Source: Dioscorea cayenensis subsp. rotundata
Taxonomy: Eukaryota; Streptophyta; Magnoliopsida; Dioscoreales; Dioscoreaceae
Assembly (NCBI RefSeq): GCF_009730915.1
Contig: NC_052480.1
Location: 62,001 to 126,000, forward strand
Reading direction: 5' to 3'
DNA: 64,000 nucleotides
Part shown: in pieces, positions 12,382 to 56,369 of the stretch
Layout: each line of letters begins with the position of its first letter
Numbering within the stretch: position 1 is the first letter of the stretch
The notes under the pieces: generated by a model
The model's input: the letters and a program-made list of their open reading frames with translations, nothing else
Database searches by the model: none
What the model was told of the DNA's origin: nothing
Program-made: the position numbers and the translations under genes

Positions 12382-12429
12382 CAATGGAGTAGAGGAGGAG
12401 AAGGCAAAGCTCGATCTAGTACCCTGACA

Positions 12430-33491: not shown

Positions 33492-34388
33492 TTAGTGTGA
33501 CTTCTCGCGAACTTTCTTAGTCCATGCGAAGTCTTCTATCTTGTTATTCACCATATTGAGATGCAAGTCTTTTATAATCACAGTCCCAGTGTTTTTTCGA
33601 CGGCGGCGACGGCGGTTGCTAGAACCCTCATCATCAGAGAAGGATCCGGACTCCTTCAAGTGAACATGACGACCACTAGGAGATAGTGTCAATTTCTTCA
33701 GCAGGTCTGATAACTCCACTCGCGCACCAAGTTTCCCCCTCCTGTTGGGTGCTGGTGCTTCTTCATCCTCTTCTTCTTCTTCTTCTTCAGCATCTTCCTC
33801 ATCATCATCAGTATCACTATATGTGCATTTCTTGCATCTGCATGTCTTGGAGTGACGAAGAGACCTTGATGATCTCTCATCTTCATATTCATCTCCATCT
33901 CCATCTTCATCTTCTTCTTCATCTTCCTCATCATCACTGTATATGCATTTCCTACATCTGCAATTCTTGGAGTGAGAATGAGACTTTGATGATCTCTTAT
34001 CTTCATATTCATACTCCTCTTCTTCTTCCTCATCTTCCTCGTCATCACCATCGCTGTAAGTGCATTTTTGGCATTTGCATGACTTAGAGTGACGATGAAA
34101 CCTTGATGATCTCTCATCTTGATCATTTTCATCTTCATCTTCATCTTCGTCTTGGTAATCATCATAAGATTTGGATCGACGGTGGTTATTACGTCTGGGG
34201 AGGTCCTCACCGTAGCTCAGTTGTTTAATTGTAGCAGAACTCCTGCCTAGCCGACGTGGCCTTTGTTCTCCATAGTCGCACTCGGACTCCTCCTCTTCTT
34301 CACCTTCACCTTCGTCACTCTCATACGTCTCCTCTTCTTCATCGCTCACCTCTTCTTCTCTGTACCGGGGTTGTAAAATCTTCGGCAT
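33492..34388 (-). CDS. Gene E: acidic protein with three CxCxxC repeats, unknown function
   Basis: This is an intact 298-aa single-exon gene that I do not recognise. Residues 1-90 are very acidic with RS-like patches. Residues 92-210 are three repeats of about 40 aa, each [EK]RSS, a His/Ser/Lys stretch, a CxCxxC (CKCQKC 104-109, CRCRKC 143-148, CRCKKC 183-188), YSD, then a long Asp/Glu run. A basic stretch RRRRRRKN at about 259-266 looks like an NLS. The C terminus has KDLHLNMVNNKIEDFAW. That tail and LLKKLTLSPSG before it match gene F at 44219-44914 (GRLALSRNG, KDMHVHMSHNRIRNFAW), so E and F are paralogs. The CxCxxC units could bind metal, and the acidic runs could bind basic proteins or nucleosomes; both are inference. 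Confidence 0.75.
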   Translation of the reverse strand: MPKILQPRYREEEVSDEEEETYESDEGEGEEEEESECDYGEQRPRRLGRSSATIKQLSYGEDLPRRNNHRRSKSYDDYQDEDEDEDENDQDERSSRFHRHSKSCKCQKCTYSDGDDEEDEEEEEEYEYEDKRSSKSHSHSKNCRCRKCIYSDDEEDEEEDEDGDGDEYEDERSSRSLRHSKTCRCKKCTYSDTDDDEEDAEEEEEEEDEEAPAPNRRGKLGARVELSDLLKKLTLSPSGRHVHLKESGSFSDDEGSSNRRRRRRKNTGTVIIKDLHLNMVNNKIEDFAWTKKVREKSH

Positions 34389-34496
34389 GCGATCTGAACC
34401 AACTCACTGATCTCTGTGTATGTGTAGCGTCTCGATGCGGCGCTAGGGTTTAGGAAAGAGGGGGAGGATAAGAGAAAGAGAAGAAAAGAAAGAGAG

Positions 34497-34510
34497 AGAT
34501 ATATATAAGA
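34497..34510 (-). promoter_or_regulatory. TATA box of gene E
   Basis: TCTTATATATATCT on the minus strand, about 110-120 bases upstream of the gene E ATG, followed by a CT-rich leader and a telobox-like AAACCCTA at about 34444-34452 (minus strand). Confidence 0.5.
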
Positions 34511-34921
34511 AATTGAATGATAGGTTGCCTGCCACTCATTCTCTCTTTTTATTTATATATTCTTTCTTTTTTGGAATAACAACGTCTTATAGAGTAACTT
34601 GTGTTTCACGCCATGCCATACTATTGGTTAAGGATTACAATCATCATTGATTCTGAGATAATCTCTAGTAATCAGCCCATAATTAAATCATCAAACCGCG
34701 TGACAGCTGTCGCTTTCCGGTTGCTCCTCCTCAGCCCCTTTGTTGTTGAACATTGCCTCCCTTCTTTTTGACCATTTCCCTCTTTCTATTGACCATTGAC
34801 CGGTACAGTATGTCTGTGTGTGCAACGCCATTGAAGAATGAATGGCAGATATAGTCAGGGTTTTGTGAATGACATTTGGTGTGTTTGGTTTAAAGGGGTG
34901 GAATAAGAGTCATTACTTATA

Positions 34922-35182
34922 GGGCTTGTTTGGATAAGCTTATAAAAAAAGTGCTTTTTTTTGCTTTGGTAGAAGCACTTTTGGGAAAAGTACTTTTCAG
35001 TAAGTTAAGTGCTTATAAAAAAAGATGGTCTTTTGTAGCTTATAAAATAAGCTGTTTTTGGGCTTATTTTACAGCTTCAGCTTAACCAAAAAAGCTGATC
35101 CAAACACCAATAAATCATCATAAGCACTTAACTTATGAAATAAGTGCTTTTGGATCATCTATAAGCTAATCCAAACAAGCCC
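34922..35182. mobile_element. MITE, PIF/Harbinger (Tourist)-like
   Basis: The 261-base element has inverted ends GGGCTTGTTTGGAT at 34922 and its complement at 35169-35182, with further symmetry inside (AAGCACTT, AAGTGCTT). The trinucleotide ATA flanks both sides. The TIR start resembles that of the Harbinger-like element at 59189 (GGGCGTGTTTGGTT). It is non-coding. Confidence 0.65.
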
Positions 35183-35366
35183 ATATTGTATAAATCCTTG
35201 TTTGGGTGTGGAGTAATGAAAGTGAGAAAGGTATGATGAAAGTGTGAGGAAATTATGGAGTAGGAGTCACATGCACTTGAATTTTGAAAGGATTCTTAAT
35301 TCCTTGACAATGAAATGACAATACTACCCTTACTTGAACCCATTTTTTTTTTATATTAACCAAATT

Positions 35367-35398
35367 GTAATTAGTGATTTATATTAGTTAATTAATTG
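35367..35398 (+). repeat. Left direct repeat flanking the LINE (candidate target-site duplication)
   Basis: These 32 bases match 41664-41695 at 28 positions, and the last 14 (TAGTTAATTAATTG) are identical. The position just before the first LINE codon and past its 3' UTR fits an ageing target-site duplication. AT-richness makes chance similarity possible. Confidence 0.5.
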
Positions 35399-35401
35399 CT
35401 T

Positions 35402-37679
35402 ATGCCTCGTTCTGACGCTAAGAAGGCCAGAGTTCGATCTAAACACTACTCCCCGGGAAACTCTTCTGAGCTCAAGCCTCTCCTTCACGTTCCTATCAAA
35501 CCACGCCCTGCTTCTCTCCGTGTGTCCTTGCCTATTACTGAAGCTATTCTTAAATCAAAGGAAGACCTCAAAAAAATGATTATCATCAGAGTTCTTTCAG
35601 GCAATGCAAGCGTCCGATCTCTCCATGACTCGCTTCCACACTGCTTGAATCCTGATTTTTGTGATCATATAACTCCATTTAACAATGATTTTGTCCTCAC
35701 TATGACAACGGCTAGGGATGCTGCCATGGCTGTGAAGAGAAGCCCACTTTCATTGAACTCCAACCTTGGTCCTTGCCGTATCAGTCTTTCTCACTAGACT
35801 GCTGAGTTTGGCTCTCATGCGATCGCCGCCGGCAACTATAATTGGATTAGAATCTCCAATCTCCCACTTCATTGCTGGAATTGGGATTCTATAGTGGACG
35901 TTCTTCGACCGATCGGGGACTTGATCTTTGTTCAAAAAGAAAGAACATATCACTCTTGAGCACCTTCGTACTTTGGTTAGGCTCAAACCTTCGATCAATT
36001 TTCCGCTGGAAATCACTGTGGATGTCGGCGTTAGAAGCTTCATCGTTAAAGCGGAAGATGATGGAGTCCACGTCCCTTCGTTCCAAGGTGGTGCAAGGTC
36101 CGTGGCTCATCTCGCCCGCGAGAACCCCTCGGCTCCGCCTTCCATAGCGCTCATTATATTCCTAAAACTGATAAGGGCAAAGCCCCCATTGTTCCCGTCG
36201 ATGCTTCTACCGGCGAGACTGTTGAGCGTAGCTCCGGTCTCGGCCATTCGACGAGAACCACGACCATCGGACTTCGGGGAGATGCTACCTCCTCCTTCCA
36301 GATGAGCGGTCGATCGCGGAAATTCCTTGGCCCTGAGGGACTGAGAATTCAGTGGCCCCGATGGCGGAATTTCCGTGTCTCACTGTCCCTCGTGAGAGTT
36401 CCGAGGTTGGAGACAAATTGTTGGCATGCAGTGGCGACGTTGTGGCTGGACTCTCCTCAGCCGTTTCTCTGCCTCGTGATAAGGATTACGCTATCATCTT
36501 TGGCACCATGCATCGTCCCTTCTGCATCGAGATAATAACTCCCTGGATTCCTGCAAAATCTCAGATGCTCTGTCATTGCCTCGTGATAACACCGCTGTTG
36601 TTGATTCCTCCCCTCGTGATCAACACTCTAACACTTTTACTATCACTTGCACTGATAATATGCACCGAGATAAACACTCCTCATCATCCACCTTAGCACT
36701 TGATCAGGTGCATCGTGATAAGAATTCGGCAATTATTCCAAATCCCTCTTATCTCAAGGATGATCTGCATCGAGATAAGCACACTCCTGATCCTCCTTCT
36801 GATGTTAATTTAATGCCTCAAGATAAGCATCATCCTGATTTATTTATTTCAACTCATGACAAGGTTCTCTTGCCTCGTGATGATCAACCTCCATCATCAA
36901 ATTCTGAAATTGATCACCCTCCCTTAGATACACCACTTGCACCTACTAATCAGGGGATCTTGCCTTCACATCTCAAACCTCTCCCCCCGACAATCTCAAT
37001 TCCAGATGGATACAGCTGGATTTTCATTCATGGAGGATGGACCTTGATCCCTAGTATTAACTCTGGAAAATTCTACTCTCTTGATCCTTCACCCCAGAAC
37101 ACTCCTTTAGATGATCACTCGGATGAAGAACTCCTAGACTGGGGTGAAGAGGAGGATTTCCTAGAGAACGAATAGGCAGATGACAATCCCTATTTTGAGG
37201 AAGATAGTCTCAATCTTTTTGAACATGATCCACCTCCCGCAATTGAAGGAGATGTCCAGATGAACGATGCTATTCCGGACTCATCTACAGTACACACCGC
37301 GGTGCCTGAAGAAACAAGTTCTTTGGAAAGTATTCCTAAACAACTTCCCCCTGATATTAAACAAATTAGAAGAAGCGATAGGCCTAAAAAACCATCTGGA
37401 CGATGGAATGAAGAAGCTGGATTTGTTCCTCTCCCTCCACGCTCCTCCAAGAAAAAAATACCTGAGGATCCTAGAGAAGGTACGCCTAATCCCTCTAATT
37501 CTGTATTTTCTTCTTGGATTGATGCTCAATTACTTAAATACAGTTATTCTTGTGGCATTAAATTCCTAGGATCACCTACTCATAAATCTAAATGCCTAGA
37601 TAAAATTCGCTCTCTCGAAGCAGAAAGAGCTTCCAATGCTCCTCAATCCCATGGATCTCCCTCGAGATCTAATTATTAG
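35402..37679 (+). pseudogene. LINE ORF1 (DUF4283-type nucleic-acid-binding protein)
   Basis: The start MPRSDAKKARVRSKHYSP is basic. The region about 35530-36110 (RVLSGNASVRSLHDSLPH, WIRISNLPLHCWNWDSI, EHITLEHLRTLVRLKPS) has the look of the DUF4283 RNA-binding domain of plant LINE ORF1. A long Asp/His/Pro-rich linker with repeated HRDKH or PRDN motifs follows. The end KQIRRSDRPKKPSGRWNE is the usual basic conclusion. At least three or four frame changes or stops interrupt it. Confidence 0.75.
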
Positions 37680-37695
37680 ACCATATTTGTTTCTC

Positions 37696-40600
37696 ATGAA
37701 AATTTTAAGTTGGAATGTTAGAGGTCTTGGCAGACCCTCTAAATGCCACCTTGTCAAAGATGTTATTTTGAATTCCCATGTTGACATTATTTGCCTTCAA
37801 GAATCTAAACTTCAAGAGCTCCATCGTTCTTACTGGAGATTAATTGGAGGTAAACGATTTGATTCTTTCGAATTTTTACCGGCTCAAGGTACCGCAGGAG
37901 GCATTATCCTCGCTTGGGATAGTTCTCAATTCCTTGGTACTTTAATTCATCTGGGATCCTTTTCCATCTCCATTAAATTTTTAAATCGATTTAACAATTC
38001 TATTTGGGCTTGCACTAGTGTATACGGCCCAAATACTCGTTCCATTAGACTTGATTTTTGGAACGAACTTAGACATTTAAGAAACCTCATCTCCATCCCT
38101 TGGGTTATCTGTGGAGACTTCAACACTGTAGTTTTCCTTCGAAGACAAAAATAATGGTTTATTTAATCCAAGAGATATTTCTACATCTCAAAACCTTCTA
38201 AGTGAACTTGACCTAATTGATCCCCCTATTAGTGGGAGAAGATTTACTTGGACCAACGGTCAATCTAATCCAATTTGGGTTCGCCTTGACCGTTTCCTTT
38301 ATTCCCACAACTGGATCTCTTTATTTCCCAGATCCACTCAATTTGTCCTCCCCAGATTTGGCTCGGACCATTCTCCCATTTGCCTTGATTTTGGAGATCA
38401 TTCTTCGCGACCCCGATCTTTTAAGTTTGAGAAATTTTTGATGCAGATGACCCCCCAACTTGTCTCCCTTATACAAGATTGGTGGGACCAGATTCTAATC
38501 ATGTTGGTCGTGGTGCCTTCATTTTTCTCCAAAAAAAACTTGCTTACCTGAAATCCAAACTTTGCTTTTGGTCCAAGAACACCTTTGGAGCATCCAAACT
38601 TTTCAAATCCAGTCTCCTCTCTGAACTTAATGCCATTGATGTCATTGGTGAAAGTAGACCCCTCACTGAGGACGAATCCTCTCGTCTCTCCCAAATCCGA
38701 TCTGAGCTCTACGCCATCCTAAACCAGGAGGAAATCTATTGGAAGCAACGTTCTAGAATTACTTGGCTTAAAGAAGGGGATTCTAATACTAAATTTTTTC
38801 ATCATGTTGCAAATGGCAGGAGAAATCTAAACCTTATATCTCGCATCTTTCATAATGATCATTGGATTGCTGGCAATGAGCAAATTGGTAGGATCTTCAC
38901 TGATCATTACCATTCTCTCTTTGGCTCTCCCTATCCAAACAGATTCCTCCTCGACTGGCAATTCCTTTTTGACTATAAAGAAAGAGTTGATCTTTCCCAT
39001 CTTGATTCACCTTTCACTCTTGTTGAAATTAAACAAAGTTTGTTTTTCGATCTCAACCCCGACAAAGCTCCCCGGCGGATGGATTCCCTATCCTCTTTTT
39101 CCAAAAACACTTTGGACCACCCTTCAGGATTCTATTGTTAAATTATGCGAAGACTTTTTTGAGGGCTCTATCAACCTTGAGCGCATTAACTGGATCAATA
39201 TTGCTCTTATCGCAAAAAATAACGTGCCAGGAAATGTTGCTGATTTTAGACCCATCAGTCTTATCAACTCTACCTGTAAAATTATTTCTAAGATTCTTGC
39301 TAATCGGCTTAGCACAGTTATCAGTAACCTAGTGGACGATTCTCAATCAGGCTTTATTAAAGGAAGATGTATCGCGGAAAACATTGTTGGAGCCCAAGAA
39401 GCTATCTTTAATTTACAGAAACGGAAAATCCTTGGATATGCCTTCAAAGTGGATTTTGCTAAAGCCTTTGACTCCCTCGACTGGAACTTTCTACTCGATA
39501 TTCTTGCGGTTAGAGGACTTGGGCCTAAATGGATCTCTTGGATTCATACTATCCTTAGCACTGCCAAGATTCAGTTCCTCATTAATGGTACCACTCAAGG
39601 TTATGTCAGATGCAAAAGAGGTTTGAGGCAAGGTGATCCACTTTCCCCTTTACTATTTGCCCTCGCTGCTGATGCCCTGAGCGCAATGTTCTTTCATGCA
39701 CTACGATCTAAAGTGCTTGTGGGTGTACCCTTTGAATCAATCGGTTAACTTTTTGCCACTTCGATCAGCTGATGACCTCTTAATCTTCTCTGCTTTGGAG
39801 GTCAAGAAGATCTTCTTATCATTAAATTAATTCTTTATCTTTTTGAGGGTTCTTCTGGCTTATCCATAAATTACTCAAAAAGTTGCTTGTACTCTACAAA
39901 CTACGGATTCCAACCACACCACTCTTCTGCCAGAATCCTAAACTGCTCCAGAAATTGTCTACCAATTACTTATTTAGGGATTCCTCTTTCTGGTCGAAGA
40001 CCAAGGCGTATTGACTGGGCAAAACTCACTGGCATGGTCCGCTCCAGACTCACTTCTTGGAAAGCAAATTACTTATCTCTGGGTGGACGGCTAACCCTTG
40101 TGAACTCTGTTCTTTCCACCATTCCAGTTTACTGGATGTCTGTCTTTAAACTCCCTATTTGGGTGATCAAAGATATTGATCAAATCCGAAGAGATTTCCT
40201 CTGGAAAGGCCCTGATCTTGGCCCTAAAGGAATCAGGCTGATCGCCTGGAATAGGATCAATAGACCACGCGACATGGGAGGCTGGGGAATTCTCAACCTT
40301 CAGGAATTTAATAAAGCTTTACTTGGGAAGTGGTGGTGGAAATTATCTTGCAACCCTAACTGTGGGTGGGCTAAAATCATTCAATCTAACTACTACTTCA
40401 ACGTTGCAAACGGCTTGTTATACCACACTCCTCCTAGAAATAAATCTTTTTTTTGGGCCGGTGTGACCTCCACTTTATTACCCTTCCACTCTTGCCTAAA
40501 CAAAACTATCAGAAGTGGTTCTACCACATCCCTTTGGTTTGATCGTTGGCACGTTGGGCTTGTTCTTAAAGATATCCGCCAACTCTCTTCTCGCGAATGT

Positions 40601-41380
40601 ACTTTTCCCGGGATAACCATTAGGCAATTTTCTCAACATCTAAATAATCCTGAGATGCTATTTCCTTCAGTCTCACGCGACATGTTATCTCCTCTTCTGG
40701 AAATTATCCCTGATTGCTCCCCTAATCAGGACGACACTCCTACCTGGGCTCTAGAAAAATGGAATTTTCACGGTCAAATCTTTTTACAATTTTTCTTATT
40801 GATGGTGGCTCATGTACTGCTCACCTCTCTCTTCGGAAAAATTCGTTGTCCTAGAAAAAAATTACCCTCTTTTGTTGGCTTCTTGGGGAAGACAAAAATT
40901 CTTACTCTCACAAATCTTTCCAAGAAAGGATGCAATACTCTAAATTCCTCAGATACCTGTGTCCTTTGTCATAATGCCTCTGAAAGCCTGAATCACCTCT
41001 TTCTCAACTGTGATTATTCTAAGCGTATTTGGGCATTTTATTCCCAGGCTTTAGATTTAAATTCTTCACCTCAATCAATTACTCTACTGTGGAACACTTG
41101 GCTACCAACTCTCACCTCTGAGCACCGTATCCTCTGGGACCTTATCTCCCGTGCAATCTTGTGGAACATTTGGATTGAACGAAATACGCGTATTTTTCAC
41201 TTGAATGCGTTACAGCCTTACAACATTATGTTTAAAAGTGCTAATATGCTTCTCTCTTGGTTCTCAACAGCTGCTGATAGCCACCACCAATCTCTCAATG
41301 AAGCTTCTCAGAAGATCAAGCGCTCACTCAACTTCCTCAGCGCTAGAGGCCCAAATCCTGTTGGAGACCCCGACCCCTAA
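37696..41380 (+). pseudogene. LINE ORF2: endonuclease, reverse transcriptase, zinc-knuckle domain
   Basis: The APE-type endonuclease comes first (ILSWNVRGLG, CLQESKL, WVICGDFNTV). The linker follows, then the reverse transcriptase (ADFRPISLINSTCKIISKIL, FKVDFAKAFDSLDWNF, GLRQGDPLSPLLFALAADAL, ADDLLIF near 39770). The zf-RVT domain (CVLCHNASESLNHLFLNC) and LWNIWIERNTRIFHLNA lie near the end. The ATG at 37696 follows the ORF1 stop by 17 bases. The frame is broken near 38150, 38440, 39100 and 39750, the last at the FADD active-site box, so the enzyme is dead as read. Confidence 0.85.
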
Positions 41381-41565
41381 TCGTCGCTCGGGGAGTAGTT
41401 GCTCATGATGTCTTTCTAGGAAGGCCTGAGATGCCAGACGGTGTCTTCCGCCTACTTAGATTTATCTCCTCGTCTCTTTACTTCATTTTGTTGTATCTCG
41501 TTTCTCCCTCACCCGGTGAGCGGAGTTTCCTACTTTGTAATCTGCCTTTTCCTATTTAATAAATC

Positions 41566-41578
41566 GTGGTTTATCCAC
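41566..41578 (+). other. Conserved 3'-terminal LINE hairpin
   Basis: GTGGTTTATCCAC can pair as a 4-bp stem with a TTTAT loop, just after AATAAA. The same sequence or close variants end other LINE copies here (46839-46851 minus, 54646-54658 plus). It may be the site recognised by the element's own reverse transcriptase; this is inference. Confidence 0.55.
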
Positions 41579-41663
41579 ACTTATTTCAAAACAATAAATT
41601 TTTAGTTAAAAAAATAATTATTATGGTTCATAATATATTTATTAAAAAAATATATTTAAATTA

Positions 41664-41695
41664 ATAATTAGTTATTTATTATAGTTAATTAATTG
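41664..41695 (+). repeat. Right direct repeat flanking the LINE
   Basis: Partner of 35367-35398, with 28 of 32 bases the same. Confidence 0.5.
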
Positions 41696-42884: not shown

Positions 42885-42892
42885 CTATATAT
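42885..42892 (+). promoter_or_regulatory. TATA box of gene A
   Basis: CTATATAT in the context GCCTATATAT, which recurs in front of gene B at 52331-52340. It lies about 115 bases upstream of the ATG. Confidence 0.6.
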
Positions 42893-43003
42893 GAGCTCCT
42901 CTGTGACTCTGTCTGCTTATGAAAAGCATTCAACAGCCCCCCAACTCTTGTTTTCACTGTTTTTCTCTCTCCGGTTATCACTTCTAAACTAATCCTTGTC
43001 AAG

Positions 43004-43699
43004 ATGGTACGTAGCTAGCTAGTTAGTTCTTGATCTCTCTTTCTATGTGCAGGAGTTGATCAATTTATAGAATATATGTATATTCACTGCCAAAAGTACT
43101 ACTGATCAATATTTATGTTGTTATGATTGCAGAGGTGCGCACCATCATGCCGTCCCTTCCGGCCCTGCTGCGTTCCAGGTTGCCCCTACTCAGGGGATGT
43201 CCAAGTAGGAGTGGACAACCAAGCAGGCAGAGACTTTGAAATGGACATCACCGACAATGATATCATTGGAGGACGTGGCAGAGCTCGCTTGGGTGCAGGC
43301 AACGATGCCGGCCGTGACAACCGCGCCAGTATATACGAGAACCGCATCCTCAATGCCAACGTGAATGCCGATATTGGCGTAGGCAACAGAGCAGGCCGAG
43401 ACAACGTCATGGAGGTCTACAGGAATACTGTGAGGGGTGGGCGTGACGGTGCCAACGTCCGTGTGGGGGCGGGCAACGATGCATGTGGGGATAACAGAAT
43501 GCGTGTCTTCTGCAACAACGTCGAGGACGCTGAGGACGATGTGGATATTGGCACCGGGAACTCTGCAGGCAGGGATAACTTCATGGAAGTCTACAACAAC
43601 GATGTCCGTGGTGCGCGCGGCGGTGTGCGCATTGGCGTTGGGAACCAGGCCGGCAGGGACAACAGGGGCCGAGTGTCCGGGAACATAGTCAGGCGTTGA
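43004..43699 (+). CDS. Gene A: Cys-rich head plus six 28-aa GVGNxAGRDN repeats, unknown function
   Basis: I do not recognise this family. Exon 1 is just the ATG at 43004-43006 (ATG|GTACGT), and exon 2 is 43133-43699 after TTATGATTGCAG. This gives 189 aa; gene B at 52439 has the same structure and exact length. Residues 1-20 hold C3, C7, C13, C14 and C18 (MRCAPSCRPFRPCCVPGCPY). Then come six repeats whose G-x-G/D-N cores start at 27, 55, 83, 113, 141 and 169, with consensus GVGNxAGRDNxMEVYxN, and a cap RVSGNIVRR. There is no signal peptide or membrane segment. Regular Gly/Asn positions and alternating hydrophobic residues suggest a beta-solenoid. The GxGNxA signature recalls bacterial curlin repeats (GxGNxAxxxQ), but homology is not shown. 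The frame is intact with no damaged repeat, so it is probably expressed. Confidence 0.8.
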
Positions 43700-43777
43700 A
43701 TTATAAATATACCTATACAAATATGTTTGCATGCAGCTTATCTTCTACTTCATTTCGGGTAATCACTTTTATGTATC

Positions 43778-43813
<36 letters not shown>

Positions 43814-44218: not shown

Positions 44219-44914
44219 TTAATGCCGACCCTTGCTGATTTTCTCCTTCTTGTTCCAAGCAAAGTTCCTAATCCTGTTATGAGACATATGGACATGCATG
44301 TCCTTTACGATCATAATCTTGCGGTTATTATCGCAGCTGCAGGAACTGTTTTTCTCCTGCCGATCACCATTACGAGATAATGCTAGTCGCCCGAACATCC
44401 GAGCTGCCTCCTCTCTCTCTTCATCATACTTCCTCCTTGCAGAAGTCTTTCTAGAACAACCATTACACTTTTGTCTCTGTTTTGAACAATACTCCTCCTC
44501 TTCATCATCATCATCATCATCTTCTTCTTCTTCCTCCTCCTCCTCCTCCTCTTCATCCTCATCATCATCTTCCTCATCACCTTCATCACTCTCATACTTG
44601 TTCTTGTGATATTGATGGCTCCGAGATCTTGGGTACTTGTTGTTCCCTTTCACGTAGAGATCATTATCAGACTCATCTTCAGTCTCAGAGTCCTCATCGT
44701 CACTCTCATCATAGCATCTCCTTCTGCCTTTGTTTTGCTGAGGTCTCACAAAGCAGTCTGCAGCTTCAGCTTCACTTTCACTGCTCTCAGTCTCTGAGGC
44801 CTCCTTTCTCCTTCCTCCATACTGCCTGGAGTATCCTCCATGGTGCCCAGAGTATCCTTGATGGTGCCTGGAATAGCTATAGCCACTTACAACCTGGTGG
44901 TATGAGGCGAACAT
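44219..44914 (-). CDS. Gene F: acidic CxC protein, paralog of gene E
   Basis: An intact 231-aa single-exon gene. Residues 10-34 are Tyr/Ser/Gly/His-rich with YSxHHGGY-type repeats. Residues 40-140 are acidic, with one Glu/Asp run of about 30. A CSKQRQKCNGC stretch and CSC follow, then GRLALSRNG and the C-terminal KDMHVHMSHNRIRNFAW. The last 60 residues match gene E. The low-complexity parts differ, so only the tail seems under strong constraint. Low-complexity Tyr/Gly plus acidic composition suggests a nuclear or condensate-forming protein; this is inference. It is tail to tail with gene A. Confidence 0.72.
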   Translation of the reverse strand: MFASYHQVVSGYSYSRHHQGYSGHHGGYSRQYGGRRKEASETESSESEAEAADCFVRPQQNKGRRRCYDESDDEDSETEDESDNDLYVKGNNKYPRSRSHQYHKNKYESDEGDEEDDDEDEEEEEEEEEEEDDDDDDEEEEYCSKQRQKCNGCSRKTSARRKYDEEREEAARMFGRLALSRNGDRQEKNSSCSCDNNRKIMIVKDMHVHMSHNRIRNFAWNKKEKISKGRH

Positions 44915-46430: not shown

Positions 46431-46831
46431 AAAAATTCAAAAATAAGTTAAAATTTTATTTATTTTAAAAAGGAAATTTAGACTTAATTAATATTAATAA
46501 AAATTAACTATATTAAATTAAAATTTATTTTTTTATAATATTAAATTTTAATATTTACTTCAAAATATTATTAATTTCGATATATTTAGTACTTATTAAT
46601 TAGATAAAGAGTATTATATTAAAAATAAAAAAATTTGTATTAAAAAAATTTCCATTTATTTAAAACGCTATATATTATATTACATTCCAGCTACATTATT
46701 GTCTTGTTAGCCAAAACAAAAAAATTACACATATTATTTTTAGTGGTAATATAACGCATAAACCAAAGCGACACTTAAAGGGATTTTGCCGATAAAAGAT
46801 GAATTATTCATTGCTTTAATACCTTTTTGAT

Positions 46832-47998
46832 TGAAAAGGTGGATAAACCACTCAATTAGAAAGAAACATAAAGCGAAGTACAAAAAAAGCAGACACCCAC
46901 AGCGTCACACAAACAAACCGCGAGGACAAAAGCGAGCTCGAGACAAACCACAAGAAGTGGCACAAGAAACCAAAAGGGACAGAACCAAAAGAGAAAAACA
47001 GGACAACACAACAAAAAACAGGCCGCCACAGCGAGGCACGGAGAGAGCAACTAGCTAGCCCGTGGATTGCATCTGCGCCTCCTCGGAAGGAATATCTCCT
47101 CCATCCTCGTTGGGGGAAGACCCCTCTATCCACCTCCACTTGAGGGTCCGAAAGCAAAAGTCTAGACTGCGCCGGATGGCATCACAAGACTCCACCAACT
47201 TCTCTCTAGGTCCCTCCGCCACTGTAGAGAACCACGCCCAGATAACATACGATCAATTTTAATCATAAGAGCATGTGCAGACAAGCAAGTAGCATTAAAA
47301 ATGCAATCATTTCTAGCAATCCAAATATTCCACACAACAGCCTTGACCACAAGATCTCCCATATCCCTACATGCAGGTCTAACTGAATATCTCCAAGAAC
47401 CCCAGATCAAACTCAAAGAACTGGGAGGTTCCGGGAGTCGCAAAATCTCCACATAATGACTCCACACCTGCTTTGTAAAATCACAATGCAGGAAGAGATG
47501 ATCAACCGTTTCCAAGCCAGCATGACATAAAACGCAAGTAGCCGTAGGGAGTTTGTTGCATCTACGCTTTTCTAAATTCTCAAGGGTGAGAATACGATCA
47601 TTCCACGCTAGCCAGTTGAAGACAGTAATCTTTTTGGGACAGAGATTACGCCAGAAGAATCTCGCAACCGGACACTGAACCCCCCCATCAATCAGGAAAT
47701 AATAAAAGGATTTCACAGTAAATGTTCCATTTCCTGTGAGTCTCCACCATTTTCTGTCCCCCACCCAACCAACAGACCCCCTAATACGCGTGCTAATTGC
47801 CTGAATATCAAGATCAGCCGAGAAGGGAGCAGTATCAAAGAAGCTCGAGAGCTCACTTATAGTACCATTGAGTTGTCTGCCGGCTCTTAGAGGTTGTGTT
47901 TTGCATGGAGTTAATTCTGAAACGGAGACCCTGTTTTGGAAAGATCGGTGGGTTAATGGCAAGGCACCTATGTACACATTAGGTGGATATAACACATT
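46832..47998 (-). mobile_element. LINE L1 fragment: zf-RVT end plus 3' UTR
   Basis: An open frame at 47995-47162 (minus) ends ORF2 of an L1 LINE: RKWWRLTGNGTFTVKSFYYF, CVLCHAGLETVDHLFLHC, VVWNIWIARNDCIFNATC. A 3' UTR of about 310 bases ends with GTGGTTTATCCAC at 46851-46839. It is another subfamily of the same lineage as the 35399 element, since protein motifs match but the 3' UTR differs. The copy is cut off at its 5' end. Confidence 0.85.
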
Positions 47999-50237
47999 TT
48001 AGGATAAGTTTTAAGATAAAAGCGAATAAATGGAAAAAAATTTCAGGTTATTGCTATTATTACAATTATTAATAGATAAACTATATAAAAAGATATTAAA
48101 AAACAAATACAAGTATATATAAGAAGCAGAAATAGGCAAAAACTAGTGATTAAATGAGGTTTTTATTAAATTCTATGTGGCATTTTTATTAAATTCAAGA
48201 TTCATGAGTCTTGACTCTTTAATCAGGTCCGTGGTTGGAGAAGTATTTCCATCTATTTCAAAATTAACAACACAAGAAATTGAGGCTGGTTTTATTGTAG
48301 TCATACAATATTTTGTTTGAGTCTCTTTGAATCATAGTTAATATAGAGAATCAAATGAAAAAAATAATTTTAAATTTTTAATTAGAATTCAGAAAAAAGA
48401 GTTGAGATAATTAATAATTTTTTTTTTTGAATAAATTGGATAAATCACGAATTTATTAGCAAATAAAAAAAACAAACAAACAAGACGTGCGAACAGACAA
48501 GAAATTAATAAATATTTTATAATTTCTTTCTAAATAGATATTCTGAAAAAATAACTCTAGTGATGAGCTCATTGGTAAGACAGCAACATCATTCTAGGTT
48601 GAGCTTTCAAAATGAGTATATATATATATATTTTTTAAAAAAAATTACAGTTGAGATTTGAGATGAAGTGATTAAAATGCACGACCAACACATTCTGAAA
48701 TGATTTTATATAAATTCTAAATTCTTCTCAAAAACTCACATGATGCACTAAAATCTTAAACAAAATTTAGGTAAATTAAGCATGAACAAACTTGGAATAT
48801 TTATATACATATATTTTAACACAATTTCACTTCTACTAGGACTTCTTGTTTTAGGGATTGTCTTCGTTAAACCTGTTATCAATACATTATTGTGAACAAG
48901 TTAAGTATCCGATTTAGAATAGTTTGAATTGTTATAAATCAAATATCAGATATAGAATAGTTTGAATTGTCAAATTAAAATCTAAAAAAATAATAATTAT
49001 TTTGTTCTTGCGAATGATCAACTTTAATAGTCCAGGACAAAAAATTTATAGCTTAACGAGCAACATTGGTTCCGCTACAAAAAAATATTGGTGTGAGGAT
49101 TTAAAAGGCTTGAGTTTAAATTCTGCTGGATGCCTGGATATAATAAAAGTAATAGATTTTTTATTATAGATGTTGATTTGCAACCTGAATCCCATGTCAT
49201 TAAACGTTATGATTACTTCCTTTGTAAAAAACAGAAAGCAAAAAAAAAAATTCTGGGCTATATTTATGTACAGGACCTATAGTTGTTGTGGGTTGTCAAA
49301 ATTTTTTGATTTATTTTTTAATTTGTCAAAACTCTATTTTTATTACATTTTGCATTACAATACTATATAAATGCCTTTAAGTAATAGTTCAAAGCTGAGA
49401 AAAAAATTCCTATTTTTTTTTTCTATTTAGTTGATTGGTGATATGGTTAGTCATATACCTTAATTATAAATATGAATAAACCTGTCAAACAAGGGCCTAG
49501 CGAAATAAAAATGCATGTGATCGTGAGTGAAGAGGTAGAGAGTTGAATCCCTTTATAAAATATTGTAACAGTATTGATACTGTAAAAATATTGTATATCA
49601 CTGTTTATTCACTATTTATTAGATTTTTTGTATGAGTCATATTTTCACATTTCCAGGATTATATAGTAGTGGAGATTTACTATCATAGGGTTATACTTTC
49701 TGATATATTATTTTGAATACAGGTGGTAAGTCATTATTGCCCCATTTATTAGCTAACTATATATAGTAAATTTGTAGGGATCATTAACTAGTATGTGTTT
49801 GTTTTTTTGACAACTCCTGAGAGGCGACACTTGTCATTTTTATCAAAAGTATATATATATATATATATAACTACAACATTGAACCCTCAATCTCTTAATT
49901 TGTGAAAAAATAAAATAATAATTTTTTTATAGTGTTGTCCTTTGTTTTGCTTGGGGTGTTTGTATTGGTTTGCTTTGTTTTTATTTGTACTTTTTTTTCA
50001 GTTCTTTAATAAAACTGTGGTTTATCCAATTTTGATAAAATAAAAGAAAAATTAGTGGGGATGATTTTTTATTTTATTTTCAAACTGATGAAATATCTGA
50101 AAATTAAAAAAACTGAATTTTCATTGGAACTCCTCTCATATAATATTGAAAATTTACAACAGTGACTCATATGCATTGTTTAAAATATATAATTTCAACA
50201 ATTTAACATCAGAAGAAATTCTGGTGCGGAGAGGAGC
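47999..50237. other. AT-rich intergenic with LINE tails and a possible SINE
   Basis: A minus-strand LINE tail lies at about 48425-48510 (TTTATTCAAAAAA-type end and GGATAAATCACGAATTTATT). A plus-strand tail lies at 49930-50042 (AATAAAACTGTGGTTTATCC). A weak SINE-like stretch at 49485-49740 has GAGTTGAATCCC as a possible B box and a body similar to the SINE at 4894 (repeated ACTGTTTA). No gene is supported. Confidence 0.4.
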
Positions 50238-51286
50238 CTATCTGATGACACGGTTCCCACTGACCCTGCCACCAACTTTTCCACCAGCGGAATTCCTTAT
50301 TCCCATCACCACTTTGGATGGGTCTTCACAGATGACAATGTTATCATAAACAAGAGTGCCACTCTGTTTATCCCCAGATGAGGATGACCGCTTCTCTCTA
50401 TTTTGAATGGCATCATCAGTAAGATATTCACGTCCATCTCTAAGTGGGTGTTGTCTGCCAATATGATCATTTCTAGGCCAATACTGATCTTGTCCATGGT
50501 ACTGATCACCATGGGTATGAGGGGGCACAGGGTAAAACTCCTGATCACGGTTGTAGGGGTAGGGGCAGTTGTGGTCAAACATCCAGTTGCTCCTTGAATC
50601 TCTTCTTGCCATATGATCCCAGCCATGTTGATCAGGTTGATGGAAATTCTGTTGAGGTGGGACGATACCATCATTATTATTATTATAATTATGTGGATTT
50701 TGATCCTGTCTTCTTGAAGCTGAAGTATCTGGTCCCGTGACATTTGGAAATTTGTCAATACCAGCTGGTGGCGGTGGTAAAGCTCGTTTAAAATCAGGCT
50801 GGTGCACTTCAGTTTGGACTATGTTTGGCTGTGTTAATCAGAGGGAAATTAAGCATGTCTGTGTTACCTATTCACGGAATAATTGTAAATTCCATTCACT
50901 AGCTCTTGATGAGATATATATATATATATATATATATATACCTGACCCTTATCCTGGGCTTGTGATTCTTCGTGCACCGCTGCCTCTAAAGGAGATGTAG
51001 CTACTGCCGTTGACGACGCGTTGGTCTGTAGCTGCTCCTTGGGTGGTGTTGCTTGGGATTCTGCATCATTTTTCTTTGGAATAACTGGGTCTGGAGAACT
51101 AGTCTCGCTCCTGCGCTCTGCTTCCTTTGATTGCTTGCCTCCCTGAAGTTCCATTATGAATTTTCGATAGCGTTTAAACATATACGAGACGAGTTGAGAA
51201 ACTGATTATTCAGAGTGCAACCAAGAATAAAGATATATATATATATATATATAGTTAAAGATATATACATAAAAGGAGTTTACCAT
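50238..51286 (-). CDS. Gene D: Gln/Asn/His-rich protein with myristoylation-like start and GVGN-type cap
   Basis: Three exons: ATG alone (51286-51284, ATG|GTAAAC), 51142-50942 (67 codons exactly) and 50828-50238, giving 264 aa. I chose this start over the in-frame MFKRYRKF because it repeats the ATG|intron structure of genes A and B, uses a good acceptor (ACTTCAG|GGA) and gives MGGKQSK, which fits the N-myristoylation pattern MGxxxS. Exon 2 is a charged, disordered region. Exon 3 is rich in Gln, Asn, His, Pro and Tyr (NPHNYNNNNDG, PPQQNFHQPDQHG), prion-like in composition. The end has GTLVYDNIV and MGIRNSAGGKVGGRVSGNRV, which matches the last repeat and cap of A and B (MGVGNQAGRDNKARVSGNIV). 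The function is unknown; membrane tethering is inferred. Confidence 0.7.
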
Positions 51287-52438
51287 CGAAAAAGGTTAGA
51301 GTGAAACTCTCCGATTCCTTTTAAGTATAAAGGAGACGAGGATCACAAAAGCTAGTGAGGAACAATAGTATAAAAGAAAGTGAGAACTCAATTGGACAAG
51401 TGCAAAGGCTTCAAGTTGTGGGGAACTTATGCAAAAGATCTCATGGATTGAATTTGATGAAATGCATCTTATCTACCCATATTTATTATATTATGTTTCT
51501 GCAGGTCTAATAGTCGTTGGTCATTTTTAATTAGTTTCTATTGCTGTTGAAGATAAACAAAAGAAATAGGTTGTATACAATGAGAATCAGAATTGGTCCG
51601 TGTCGAATAATTATAAAAAGACCAAAAGAAGCTCAGCTGCTTAGGATTCTTGGCCATGCTTTATTAGTAAACTCACTGGTCTTTAAATAATCCCAAGGTC
51701 GATCTTATTATAGCTAAGATATAGTTGGTTCACATGCCTTTGTCATCATTTCATTAAATATCGTTATCTTGTTTTTATTCACACAGATTATTTCATTCAC
51801 TCGAGGTAAACTTTTTTTTTTTTTTTTGGATTAAATGAATGAGTTTTGACTTGATACGGTTAAATGAGGATTGATGATCTATACTTGGTAAATCAATTTG
51901 TAATTTGCCAGTACTAATAATAAATTCACCATAAGCAGCACCCGTAGTGAAAATTCATGTGCTTAATCTGGTTACAATGTACCAAGATTGGAAGGTAAAA
52001 GTAACAGCTAAATATCATGGTTGGCAAGTAGTAAGTCAGAGAGTCAAGGCATGGTGTCGCACTTGCTAGGCGATGATGACGATGATAAATGGCTATAAAA
52101 CTGTTTAACATGTACAATAAACTATGCTAGTACAGCCAAAAAGTCAATGATATTGAGCCCATTGAAATTTCGACCATGGGCCCAACGAATTGGAATATAT
52201 ATTTTTGTAAAAATATTTTAAACAATGACTTGACTTGATGACCTTCTCTCTCTACCTGTTCACAATTAAGCACCAGCCATCCATCTATTCATCATGAAGG
52301 TAGCTGCTCGGTTTCATGAATTCAGGGGGTGCCTATATATATAAGCTTCATCCTTTCTTCCTCTTCTAAAGCAATCCACAGCTAAATTAACTCATCTTAT
52401 TGATCCATACCTCATCATATCATCATTAACCAAGATAT
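51287..52438. promoter_or_regulatory. Divergent promoter region of genes D and B
   Basis: The 1152 bases between the two ATGs hold a D-side leader and TA runs, a B-side TATA box in GCCTATATATATAAGC (52331-52346), and AAAAGTCAATGA at about 52138-52149, which contains the W-box core TTGACT on the minus strand. Much of this region is repeated at 55350-56210. Confidence 0.6.
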
Positions 52439-53138
52439 ATGGTACCTCCGATTCTCTGTTACATATATATATATATATATGGTTAATTAGTTGCAGATAC
52501 ATATATGTATATATATATATATATCAGCTGGTAATTGATTCTAATTAACATGCATGGTGTTATGATTGCAGGAGTGCGACCGGTCATGCCGTCCCCACCG
52601 GCCCTGCGGCGTCAGGGGCTGCCCTTACATGGGAGACGTCCAGGTCGGGGTTGACAACCGCGCATGCGGAGACTTGGGAATAGATGTCACCGACAATGAC
52701 ATCATAAGGGGTAGTGGTAGAGTTCGCATGGGTGTAGGTAACGACACCGGCCGTGACAACTATGCCCGTATCTACGAGAACCGAGTCTTGGACGCCGACG
52801 TGAACGTCGATATGGGCGTAGGCAACACCGCCGGCTGCGACAGCCGCATGGAGGTGTATAGGAATACCGTGACGGGTGGTCGCCGGGGTACCAACGTGCG
52901 TGTTGGAGCAGCCAACGATGCACGTCGGGACAACGACATGCGAGTCTTCTGCAACAACGTGGAGGGCGCTGAAGACGATGTGGATATTGGCGTCGGGAAC
53001 ACGGCGGGCAGGGACAACTTCATGGATGTCGACAACAACGATATCCGTGGCGCGCGGGGAGGAGTTCGCATGGGCGTGGGGAACCAGGCCGGCAGGGACA
53101 ACAAGGCCCGAGTGTCCGGGAACATAGTCAGGCGTTAG
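52439..53138 (+). CDS. Gene B: second intact GVGNxAGRDN repeat protein
   Basis: Exon 1 is the ATG at 52439-52441 (ATG|GTACCT), and exon 2 is 52572-53138 after TTATGATTGCAG, giving 189 aa as in gene A. The head MECDRSCRPHRPCGVRGCPY keeps C3, C7, C13 and C18 but has Gly at 14. All six 28-aa repeats are present (for example GVGNTAGRDNFMDV and GVGNQAGRDNKARV), and the cap RVSGNIVRR is identical. Differences from A are mainly in the variable positions of repeats, with no gaps, which points to purifying selection on the scaffold. It is head to head with gene D. The exon is GC-rich while its flanks are AT-rich. Confidence 0.8.
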
Positions 53139-53402
53139 AATTATCTATCCGTGCTTGTGCTTGCATCTTTATCGTTTTCTTCATTTAGCTCGATCGTGTG
53201 TTTTGCTTTCTTGAATAATCTTTGTGTATTTGTTGTTGTTGTTGTGTCGTTTTTTTCTTTACATCCTGTTTTTTAGGCTGTTGCTTGCCTTCATTATGAT
53301 CCAATAAAAAAGAGTGTCTTATATTCCCATTGTTATTTATTTATTAATTATTAACTTAAGACGTTTTATGGATAATATGTACAAAAACTAAAATAGGATG
53401 GG

Positions 53403-53434
<32 letters not shown>

Positions 53435-54169
53435 TATTATTATTATAATAATAAAGAGTGCCTCATTGTTCTCACATGTTAATTAATTCATCATATCGAC
53501 CTCACTGAGCAACCCTTCCTCTCTTTCGCCCCTGTTTGGTAACTAATGACCAATCTGATTCCACCTAAGTGTGGCTTCATTAGTTCTTTGTATCATATAA
53601 TTAGCTTGCCCATTTGTTAGGGTTTGCTAATCTGCAATGCCTAGGTATGGATTTGACGGCAATAACATTCTCCAAACTTAGACCTTGCACTGGTAGAAGT
53701 CCTAGGTAATCACTTTCCCTGATCCTAGGCTAGATAATTCTCACATAAAGTGCAGGTTGACCTTTTACTTCTAAAGGTTCCTTTTACACTCGAGGAACTA
53801 AAAGCTATGATTTTTTTTGATTTTTTTAGTTTGGTGCTGAGAAAGCTCCAAGTGAGATATTTACCTTATTTTCTTTTTTTTTTTCCTACACTACAACATT
53901 AATACAAGGCTCGAGCCTAGATGAAAAAGGCTCAGGGTCACTACATGGTTGGGAACACAAGGAACTCAAGTGAAATGATCCAATATCACTCCAAGGTGTG
54001 AGATTCTTTATGAGTGGCATGCATATCTCCTTATAGTACTGTAGCACTATCCATGACTGTGGGCAATCGATAGTAATTTTTGGAGTTGTATTTGTCACCT
54101 TGTCAATCTCAACCACTGTTGCCTACGTTTGATGTGTCTTGTCGTCGCGGAATTGGGTGTGGAGAAATA
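53139..54169. other. Intergenic between the duplicated units
   Basis: The gene B 3' UTR with AATAAA at about 53303, an AAT/ATT palindromic run at 53406-53454 that could fold, and otherwise nothing I can support. Confidence 0.5.
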
Positions 54170-54334
54170 GCCTTATTCCCATGTTCTGCATCCTTTGTTT
54201 GCTAGCCTCCCTAAAATTTATTTAAAAATTGAGAATAAAGAGTACATATACAAGACAAGTTAAGAAACTCATTATTAAAGTAAGTGTTGATACTGTAAAT
54301 TTTGAGGTATATTTCAATACAACTCTTTTAATCC

Positions 54335-54682
54335 ATTGTTTGATCGAGAACCTCTCAATGAAGCAACTCGGAAAATCAAACGCTCACTCAACTCGCTCGA
54401 ATAGAGAATCCACCCTCGGTTGGCGATCATGACATCGACAATCGCTATGGAGTAGAGTGATCATGTTGTTTGTCTTAGTAGGCTCGAGATGTCGGGGACG
54501 ACATCTCTCGTCTTCTAAAGCTCCCATACACTGTCTGTCTTTTTACTGTATTCGTCTTCTTTGTACTTCCTCACCTTTGGTGAGAGATGACTATTTCCCC
54601 GTTCCTATGTTTCTCTTTGTACTGTTGTTTTTCTTTAATAAATTTGTGGTTTATCCACATTTTATCAAAAAAAAAAAAAAAC
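54335..54682 (+). mobile_element. LINE 3' fragment, same subfamily as the 35399 element
   Basis: CTCTCAATGAAGCAACTCGG and AATCAAACGCTCACTCAACT match the end of ORF2 of the large LINE (CTCAATGAAGCTTCTCAGAA, AAGCGCTCACTCAACTTCCT). The 3' UTR ends AATAAATTTGTGGTTTATCC, then CACATTTTATC and a run of about 15 A. The clean A tail suggests a fairly recent insertion. Confidence 0.8.
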
Positions 54683-54975
54683 ATGGGAGGACTACTACTT
54701 TATTAAAAAAAACAGCACAAAAAGATGGATAAACTACTACTTTATTAAAAAAAACAGCACAAAAAGATGGATAAAACAATACGTAATGTATTATAATATT
54801 TTTTTTGAAAAAGATGGATAAACTACTACTTTTATTAAAAAAACAAGACACCAAAAATAACCAACAAAAAAAAACAAAACAAATAATTCTCACCAACAGT
54901 GAAGAGCTCAAAAAAGAAAAATACAATTAAATAAGGAGGACAGCAAGTAAACAAAGAGGACAACCGGGAAAGCAA
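54683..54975 (-). mobile_element. Stacked LINE 3' tails in opposite orientation
   Basis: The unit AAAAAGATGGATAAACTACT plus ACTTTATTAAAAAAAACAGC occurs three times (about 54690, 54720, 54800), each a truncated minus-strand LINE end, with a longer 3' UTR piece in the last copy (CCAAAAATAACCAACAAAAA). Confidence 0.55.
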
Positions 54976-56209
54976 AAAGTATTATAATAATTTCACACTT
55001 TCTCTTTCCATGTATTCCTTCTCATCGCTGTGATTCCGCCTATGTTCTCATGTTTTTTTGAGAGCTTTGCTCATAGTTTTGAGAGGCTGCTAACAACTTC
55101 TTTTTTTCGGAAACACTAGAATCAAAAATAGGAAATGGAAGAGTTTGTTATTACTAATTTTTTTAAACCAGTATTTGTGCAAATAAAAATTGGAAACAAT
55201 ACCTAAAACCTTTTGTGATATCCATTGAACATATAATATAAAACAGTACAAGCATTTATATTGTATCTCAATTATTTTTATTGTATTGTGCTTCTTATGT
55301 TGTACTTGTTTACAAATGAAATGGAGGGCGCACCAAAGAGCAAACATATATATATATAGTTAATGATACATAAAAGAGTTTACAATCCGAAAAGGTGAGA
55401 CTGAAACTCTCTAATTCCCCTTAGATTAATTATTCTTGTATTCGAGTAGTGGCTGTAGCATTCTTGAAAGGAGAGAAGGATCACAGGAGCTAATGAGAAA
55501 TAACAGCATAAAAAGAGAGTTTAATTAGACAAGTGCAGATGCTTCAGGTTGTGGGGAATTAATGAAGCAGATCTCATGGATATTGAAATTGATGAAATGC
55601 ATCTTGATTATCTACTATACCCATATTTATTTTAATGTTGTAGCAAGTCTAAAATAGTAGTTGGTCATTTTTAATTAACAACAGAAATAGGTTTGTGTAC
55701 AATAAGAATCATAATTGGCCTGTGTTGAATCAATGGCATTACCTTCTGCTTAGGTTGCTTTCCTTAATCAATTTCTTCATGAGTCTGAATGATTCAAATA
55801 ATTATAAAAAGACCAAAAGAAGCTCAATTTCCTCACTGGTCTTTAAATAATCTAAATTAATTTATAGCTAACGCAGAGTTTGTTCAGACGTCTTTGTCAT
55901 CATTTCATTTAATATCCTCATGTAATTTGTATTCACACTAACTTTGACTAGATATGGTAAATGAATTTATAATTTGCCAGTACGTACTGATCATAAATTC
56001 ACCATAAATTACATCCATATATAGTTGAAATTCATATACTTAATCTACGTGCCATGATTGGAAGGTAAAAGTGACCATTAAAAATCTTTGTTGGCAAGTA
56101 GTGACTCAGAGAAAATAAAAGGAAATGACACTTGCCAAGTGATGACGATGATGCATACTTGTAAAACTGTTCTACATACACCAGCCAAAAAGTCAATGAC
56201 ACCGAGCCC
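54976..56209. other. Second-unit intergenic sequence
   Basis: From about 55345 it is the duplicated D/B divergent promoter region. 54976-55344 is AT-rich with nothing I can name. Confidence 0.5.
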
Positions 56210-56369
56210 ATTGGATATCGGCGTTGGGAACTCGGCGGGCAGGGACAACTTCATGGATATCTATAACAATGATATCCGTGGTGCTCGTGGCGGCGTGCGC
56301 ATGGGCGTGGGGAACCAGGCCGGTAGGGACAACAAGGGCCGAGTGTCCGGGAACATAGTCAGGCGTTGA
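56210..56369 (+). pseudogene. Gene C: GVGN repeat pseudogene made by internal deletion
   Basis: The last 1.8 repeats and the cap of the A/B family are present (DIGVGNSAGRDNFMDI, GVGNQAGRDNKGRVSGN, stop at 56367-56369). Just left of them is the far-upstream sequence of gene B (AAAAAGTCAATGACACCGAG, then CCCATTGGATATCGGCG). TATA box, ATG, intron and four repeats are therefore deleted, about 815 bases by comparison with gene B, with the short match TTG(G)A at the joint. What remains is in frame. Confidence 0.8.

Follow-up and report, generated by a model that had tools for sequence, protein, structure and literature searches.

In the window, a 64,000-nucleotide stretch of the Dioscorea cayenensis subsp. 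rotundata genome, two apparently working and previously undescribed plant genes, A and B, encode tandem-repeat proteins under purifying selection. We propose, with about even confidence, that A, B, a broken third copy (C) and the C-terminal tail of a neighboring gene (D) belong to one family, that the repeat proteins form solenoid rods, that D tethers B at the membrane, and that two acidic neighbors, E and F, are separate from them. We read A, B and D as a single solenoid family, probably confined to one lineage, that includes a head-to-head partner.

Genes A and B

The following features make up the two repeat genes.

43004..43006, plus strand: predicted first coding exon of A, consisting of the ATG only, with a GT donor next to it (ATG/GTACGT; acceptor TTGCAG/AGG)
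43133..43699, plus strand: exon 2 of A, Cys-rich N-terminus and six 28-30-aa GVGN repeats, including the stop
52439..52441, plus strand: predicted first coding exon of B, the ATG alone (ATG/GTACCT; acceptor TTGCAG/GAG)
52572..53138, plus strand: exon 2 of B, Cys-rich N-terminus and six repeats, a predicted beta-solenoid (AlphaFold model)

Both A (43004-43699, one intron) and B (52439-53138) lie on the plus strand, and each product has 189 residues. The two intact repeat proteins described in the sequence-only reading are thus upheld, with 75% identity across 188 aligned residues and regular repeat spacing: there are six repeats of 28-30 aa per protein, and in A the repeat starts are spaced by 28, 28, 30, 28, and 28 residues. 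Gly5, Asn8, Asp13, and Asn21 do not vary in any of the 14 repeat rows taken from A, B, and C, both asparagines therefore being kept in 14/14, and Gln is conserved nowhere in the repeat. Cysteines occur at positions 3, 7, 13, 14, and 18 of A and at positions 3, 7, 13, and 18 of B. Because an in-frame stop sits directly upstream of exon 2, the Cys-rich N-terminus of A requires the ATG-only exon. Comparison of A with B shows that both encode proteins and evolve under purifying selection (dN/dS = 0.27 at dS = 0.56), with a codon-position pattern as well.

An AlphaFold model of B, which rests on two sequences, is an all-beta solenoid (pLDDT 78, pTM 0.76). The predicted fold of both proteins is a six-coil beta-solenoid, that is, a stiff ladder-like rod in which the invariant Gly, Asn, and Asp would line up in stacks along the coil. 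A Foldseek search with this model, run against the PDB and the viral library, had no match at E <= 0.001 in either; in the latter, a phage "curlin associated" model ranks sixth (0.075).

The divergent partner D and its decayed copy

Gene D and the duplicated segment comprise the following features.

50238..50828, minus strand: D exon 3, a low-complexity stretch and a C-terminal tail probably homologous to the final one and a half repeats of A/B
50942..51142, minus strand: D exon 2, starting GGKQSKE (proposed gene model)
51284..51286, minus strand: D first coding exon, the ATG alone (ATG/GTAAAC), a layout as in A and B (proposed gene model)
51287..52438, no strand: D-B intergenic region, about 1.15 kb from start codon to start codon
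54151..54276, minus strand: D', a remnant of D exon 2 and intron 1, matching 51083-51210
55346..56213, no strand: degraded duplicate of the D-B intergenic region, ahead of C (four-block match)
56211..56369, plus strand: C, the 3' remnant of a third copy, with the last two repeats and the stop (sequence match to B)

D and B are divergent, head to head, and the start of D, ATG plus GGKQSKE, reads like what we take to be a putative N-myristoylation start. The tail of D aligns with the exact C-terminus of A and B. Identity is 54% in a 24-aa alignment with B and 34% across 59 columns with A, at E values from 0.11 to 0.4. When 1138 ORFs were searched with the repeat profile, D was the best match outside A, B, and C (10.6 bits, E 0.031), against 7.5 bits for the next unrelated ORF, and in a shuffle test, where the D tail scored 10.1 bits, none of 2000 shuffles did as well. 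Weak as it is, this match makes it probable that the tail and the A/B repeats are related. Accordingly, the cap that had been called the same as that of A and B is similar and not identical. The label "prion-like" was overgenerous, because the Q/N enrichment of D is only moderate (15.5% overall and at most 28% in any 60 residues).

The pair exists in a second, decayed form. C (56211-56366) has 90% identity to the end of B over 52 aa, and its upstream edge joins directly to sequence resembling the D-B intergenic region. The segment 51241-52164 is repeated as four blocks at 55346-56213, with identities of 69, 97 (over 33 bases), 78, and 70%. D' has 73% identity to 51083-51210 (E 4e-19, relaxed scoring), and a start-side copy of the D remnant lies next to C at 55346-55730. 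Both the deletion pseudogene C and the D remnant beside it (54151-54276 and 55346-55730), as proposed earlier, are borne out. These alignments support the view that D'-C is a decayed duplicate of the divergent D-B pair, copied as a unit.

It is possible, and less probable than the family reading, that A and B are an orphan solenoid family serving a separate structural, storage, or stress function and that the resemblance and position of D are coincidental or a relic. Tandem duplication alone can explain the linkage, the D match is weak (E 0.031), and there are no relatives for a comparison of co-occurrence. On the other hand, the D tail aligns to the exact C-terminus, better than any of the shuffles, the ATG-only exon is common to D in the proposed model, and D was duplicated along with the repeat gene.

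The acidic neighbors E and F

The acidic genes and the element next to them are as follows.

33492..34388, minus strand: E, acidic, 298 aa, with roughly three imperfect tandem units, each near 39 aa in length and bearing a CxC motif
35402..41577, plus strand: LINE retrotransposon between E and A (ends approximate, outer ends judged by eye)
44219..44914, minus strand: F, 231 aa, an acidic E paralog placed tail to tail with A

As had been read from the sequence, E and F are acidic CxC paralogs, with net charges of -40 and -21, three CxC motifs and one, and a common C-terminal tail (12/23 identical by hand count). The repeat profile matched neither, with 723/2000 shuffles of E and 323/2000 of F scoring equally well. 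A short hydrophobic/Asn pattern had been claimed for E, F, D, A, and B alike; as stated, it occurs five times in A, six times in B, once each in E and F, and never in D, and the claim was not confirmed. The single matches in the E and F tails have shuffle P values of 0.011 and 0.019, for a pattern picked post hoc.

The divergent two-gene module of the sequence-only reading stands for D-B, duplicated as D'-C, and was not confirmed for E-A, whose start codons are 8.6 kb apart with the LINE (reverse transcriptase PF00078 at 38855-39745; zf-RVT PF13966 at 40034-41377) in between. The region upstream of E had no clear similarity to the D-B region, and those upstream of A and B were similar at the intron end only, besides AT-rich matches. 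This comparison revealed no common promoter for E-A and D-B.

We consider it unlikely that all five genes (A, B, D, E, and F) act as a single assembling system, as was suggested earlier. All the genes lie within 23 kb, the E tail, like B, is without relatives, and the loose strand-turn pattern recurs in the E/F tails and the repeats; against this, the profile misses E and F, the D-B promoter region has no copy at E-A, and the structure model of the E/F tail is poor (pLDDT 52.9) and too weak for use. Assembly of the products is plausible for D with B, because the D tail and the A/B repeats are probably related, and is not supported for E and F, for which no profile similarity and no common module were found. 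We read E and F as separate neighbors, whose connection to A, B, and D is at most putative.

Searches for relatives

The protein database was queried with B, the PAN control, and residues 215-298 of E only. Against 5.8 billion proteins, B had no match at E <= 0.001, and the E tail had no detectable relatives; such a null excludes only relatives with exact 5-residue words in common. The control gene of the window gave 408 matches, the best named among the 120 listed being from Dioscorea zingiberensis (76%), and the database therefore covers plants. Another gene of the window has a near-identical record (P0001), and none such was found for B at E <= 0.001. Since B and the E tail are without detectable relatives, a shared phylogenetic range cannot be used as support; the result is compatible with a narrow range common to both or with two unrelated families that evolve fast.

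The view that these genes are unrecognized was supported. Nothing exceeded a curated cut-off for A, B, D, E, or F in Pfam (E up to 1 and 10), NCBIfam, or PHROGs. With E allowed up to 10, a setting at which the HMMER filters drop most matches above 0.1, Pfam assigned no family to A, B, or D exon 3. The NCBIfam matches of A and B reached 13.3 and 11 bits against a cut-off of 200. PDB sequences yielded nothing below E 0.3 and no match to the A/B profile or the repeat profile. Several sub-threshold candidates were dismissed: Cys_knot for E (0.73), Nop14 for F (0.49), HhH-GPD for the F tail (0.13), BimD for A (0.088), a RusA model (0.44) and DegS (0.52) for B; three PHROGs for F (best 0.002), lying on its acidic run, were likewise set aside. 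A bacterial or viral origin of A and B was rejected, none of the 52 and 187 pattern matches in bacterial and viral contigs being confirmed at E <= 1e-3. In the literature, judged by titles and abstract openings, the repeat motif strings gave only unrelated matches to single short strings, and the A/B/D family is undescribed in the titles and opening lines of the abstracts among those listed on solenoids, plant amyloid, Dioscorea orphan genes, and amyloid signaling.

Comparison with known systems

The SufB/SufD beta-helix may have its fold class in common with the B model (Foldseek E only 0.014, 7% identity), and A and B gave no Pfam match to that sequence family. As for pectate lyases and other right-handed beta-helix enzymes, no enzyme family was matched, and the A/B coils are short and regular, at 28 aa.

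Like CsgA and FapC, A and B consist of imperfect tandem repeats with conserved Asn and, as predicted here, may have a beta-solenoid core. They differ in that no curlin or Fap profile was matched (Pfam; NCBIfam far below cut-off) and in that they are plant proteins with no recognized secretion signal. CsgB and FapB are described as nucleators, partner genes with related repeats, FapB having three repeats against the one of D (PMC12822426). HET-s/NWD2 and RHIM, comparably, are neighboring genes of which one has repeats and the other a related motif (PMC7889193, PMC4518210); there, the HET-s domain is unfolded when soluble (PMC4518210), whereas B is modeled as a folded monomer. D carries one A/B-related tail, by a weak match, and neither it nor A or B has an NLR or cell-death domain (Pfam) or matches an amyloid-signaling motif profile; the whole of D has no Pfam match at E <= 1 and no receptor or effector domain. 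PMC7889193 leaves open whether amyloid signaling extends to plants, and in PMC12261475 plants appear only in a reference.

We give little credence to a functional-amyloid or amyloid-signaling pair in which the B repeats polymerize by templating and the single D motif is the seed or nucleator, in the way that CsgB/FapB serve CsgA/FapC or the motif of the adjacent-gene receptor serves HET-S. A, B, and D have no Pfam match, the A/B and repeat profiles have no PDB sequence match, the repeats are rich in charges (R, D) and modeled as a folded monomer, the Foldseek probabilities are 0.06 for FapC and 0.05 for CsgA (rmsd 8.4), and the nucleator FapB has three repeats, as FapC does, not one. Gly/Asn turns are, besides, common in solenoids generally. 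Similarly improbable is a plant solenoid-templating pair, in which membrane-tethered, flexible D would present one solenoid coil that nucleates or caps end-to-end polymers of A/B; such a pair would parallel the nucleator/subunit or receptor/effector amyloid pairs and would have arisen in a single monocot lineage when the tail of D itself was amplified. That the ORFs are accidental, in decaying or non-coding sequence, is very unlikely and was already disfavored: C is broken, B lacks database relatives, and antisense ORFs of similar length exist, but the dN/dS and codon-position pattern between A and B and the kept splice layout and Cys-rich start argue against it.

Proposed mechanism and implications

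Returning to the family reading, A and B would be rigid cytosolic rods, no secretion signal being recognized by eye, and their Cys-rich N-terminus could be lipidated or metal-binding. D would be a flexible and possibly myristoylated tether; its single coil may stack against the free end of the B rod and so fix B at a membrane, and the two would be co-expressed from one intergenic region. A and B may descend from a D-like tail via amplification of a two-repeat unit, because their same-parity repeats resemble each other more. Against this reading stand the weak D match (E 0.031; 0.11-0.4), with the next unrelated ORF at 7.5 vs 10.6 bits; the merely proposed status of the D gene model; the long antisense ORFs, of similar length, that overlap A and B; a solenoid model from two sequences, with no Foldseek match at E <= 0.001; and no database protein matching B at that threshold, despite the P0001 record.

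If the gene models hold, this would be a plant beta-solenoid repeat family with no relative detected in a plant-covering database, and a readable case of repeat-protein origin, in which a neighboring gene keeps about one unit, the same odd first exon, and a common intergenic region. If D does not bind B, this would be one further orphan tandem family; if it does, the pair would offer a compact case in which solenoid docking in plants can be tested.

The Repeat Genes A and B and the Remnant C

The genes and gene remnants of the cluster are as follows:

33492-34388, minus strand: E, acidic CxC protein of 298 aa
43004-43699, plus strand: A, GVGN repeat protein of 189 aa
44219-44914, minus strand: F, acidic CxC protein of 231 aa
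51284-51286, 51142-50942 and 50828-50238, minus strand: modelled exons of D, the head-to-head neighbour of B
52439-53138, plus strand: B, GVGN repeat protein of 189 aa
54151-54276: remnant of D exon 2
56211-56369: C, remnant of a third repeat gene, reduced to its final two repeats and stop codon

Judged from their substitution pattern, A and B are genuine coding genes. Their proteins are 75% identical, the codon differences number 29, 23, and 60 at first, second, and third positions, and dN/dS is 0.27 (bootstrap 0.17-0.43, 500 resamplings) with dS 0.56; the C fragment compared with B has a matching pattern (3, 1, 11), and A and B also resemble each other in their 3' flanks (68% across 102 columns). 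In both gene models, the start codon alone forms the first coding exon (ATG/GT); the intron behind it measures 126 or 130 bases, and a single second exon of 567 bases completes the coding sequence. Each protein carries six repeats at a spacing of 28-30 residues. All 14 repeat rows, those of C included, share Gly5, Asn8, Asp13, and Asn21 and have a hydrophobic residue at positions 4, 18, and 23. Cysteines 3, 7, 13, and 18 are conserved at the N-terminus, with Cys14 additionally in A, and structure modelling predicts a beta-solenoid fold for the family. On the antisense strand, A and B are overlapped by open frames 180 and 186 aa long; automatic annotation could have missed or misread the two genes, possibly because these frames stay open.

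The D-B Pair and Its Decayed Duplicate

D and B are divergent, with their start codons approximately 1.15 kb apart. A second copy of the segment 51241-52164 lies ahead of C at 55346-56213. It consists of four blocks, whose identities are 69%, 97% (across just 33 bases), 78%, and 70%. On its upstream side C joins this intergenic copy directly, and therefore the front of the C gene was lost by deletion; LINE-like fragments lie between the copy and the D exon-2 remnant. Because both the intergenic region and D exon 2 recur, D and B were duplicated as a pair whose copy decayed at both ends, which bears out the duplicated divergent pair proposed in the sequence-only reading.

The locus is rich in LINE elements:

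35402-41577 (approximate ends): LINE retrotransposon with reverse transcriptase and zf-RVT domains, between E and A
47165-47998, minus strand: LINE-like zf-RVT ORF
49970-50051, 54349-54393 and 54602-54680: LINE-like fragments, similar to one another or to the LINE at 35402-41577

An assembly gap, roughly 1 kb of consecutive N at about 57255-58267, follows shortly after C, and more copies of the cluster could lie within or past it. Elsewhere, 13749-14095 and 32704-33040 are inverted copies approximately 19 kb apart (73% over 361 columns), perhaps a small transposon family, and 59834-60268 contains imperfect tandem copies (spacing about 124 bases, 81% alike) and an open frame 123 aa long.

The spliced D model encodes 264 aa, its predicted first exon again being ATG only, and unspliced alternative starts are possible. 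Its N-terminus, Met-Gly-Gly-Lys-Gln-Ser-Lys, presumably fits the rules for N-myristoylation. The Q/N content is moderate (15.5%, at most 28% per 60 residues). A profile built from the 14 repeat rows of A, B, and C matches the final 22 residues of D at 10.1 bits, the top shuffle among 2000 reaching 2.7. Among the 1138 ORFs of the window, D is the top match outside A, B, and C (10.6 bits, E 0.031), the runner-up scoring 7.5 bits (E 0.29). A broader D-A alignment of 59 columns, with 34% identity, extends to both C-termini (E 0.11-0.17). These comparisons make it probable that the D tail is homologous to the A/B repeats.

The Acidic Paralogs E and F

The acidic proteins E and F are paralogous, their tail is conserved, and E contains about three tandem units, each of about 39 aa. 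The earlier proposal that A, B, D, E, and F form one system is not supported: the repeat profile gives -5.0 bits for E and -2.5 bits for F, with 723 and 323 of 2000 shuffles equal or better, and the regions upstream of E and of F have no clear likeness to D-B. The short pattern said to be common to all occurs once each in E and F (shuffle P 0.011 and 0.019, for a pattern chosen post hoc and occurrences that are not independent) and is absent from D. The E tail drew 20 candidates from the protein database, none at E <= 1, and its structure model is unusable (pLDDT 52.9). The linkage of E and F to A and B may be chance. Residues 18-23 of A, Cys-Pro-Tyr-Ser-Gly-Asp, at the end of the N-terminus (within 43133-43699), loosely resemble the very short E-unit end Cys-Thr-Tyr-Ser-Asp (33492-34388). 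Upstream of A and B, the intron end gives a match with E 6e-7 and the other matches fall in AT-rich stretches; a TATA-like block, similar by eye, precedes both starts.

Search for Relatives

The family has no credible match in Pfam, NCBIfam, PHROGs, or PDB sequences, and no match to A/B was confirmed in bacterial and archaeal genomes or viral contigs. Against 5.8 billion proteins, B drew 249 word-sharing candidates, none at E <= 0.001; distant relatives could escape this search because it relies on exact shared words. The database does cover plants, since of 7992 candidates scored with the control query, the PAN-domain lectin gene at 20333-21829, 408 proteins reached E <= 0.001, and among the 120 of these listed, those with an organism given are from flowering plants. 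The top named match among those listed is from Dioscorea zingiberensis (76%); one record is a 100% match by the table but, read directly, differs by at least one residue. These matches place the window in a flowering plant, probably a yam or near kin of the yams (Dioscoreales). A fair reading of these searches is that the A/B family is probably lineage-restricted. Ordinary plant genes also lie in the window:

2402-3337: prephenate dehydratase domain gene
11752-12426: HSF DNA-binding domain gene
27579-28202: DUF868 gene

Possible Origin and Role

Same-parity repeats are closer in DNA than others (58.7 vs 51.8% in A, 57.8 vs 51.1% in B, as raw means), a difference that would fit an array enlarged two repeats at a time. 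The D tail corresponds to about one such unit, and A/B may therefore derive from a D-like gene, through threefold amplification of its tail.

The family is real and apparently undescribed, and D is its probable partner gene. A and B would form a rigid rod, as predicted, which the single coil of D may cap or tether at a membrane; the tethering, lipidation, D-rod contact, and purpose we infer, the relation of D being probable. The layout resembles Curli/Fap and HET-s, in which, according to published accounts, a repeat protein is paired with a partner carrying a like motif (PMC12822426, PMC7889193, PMC4518210); sequence tests did not place the family in either system. A solenoid templating pair in a plant, for which D and B are at most a candidate with hypothetical polymerisation, would be novel, because the authors of PMC7377382 report that, among full-length seed storage proteins of plants, pea vicilin was the first for which amyloid properties were demonstrated in vivo.
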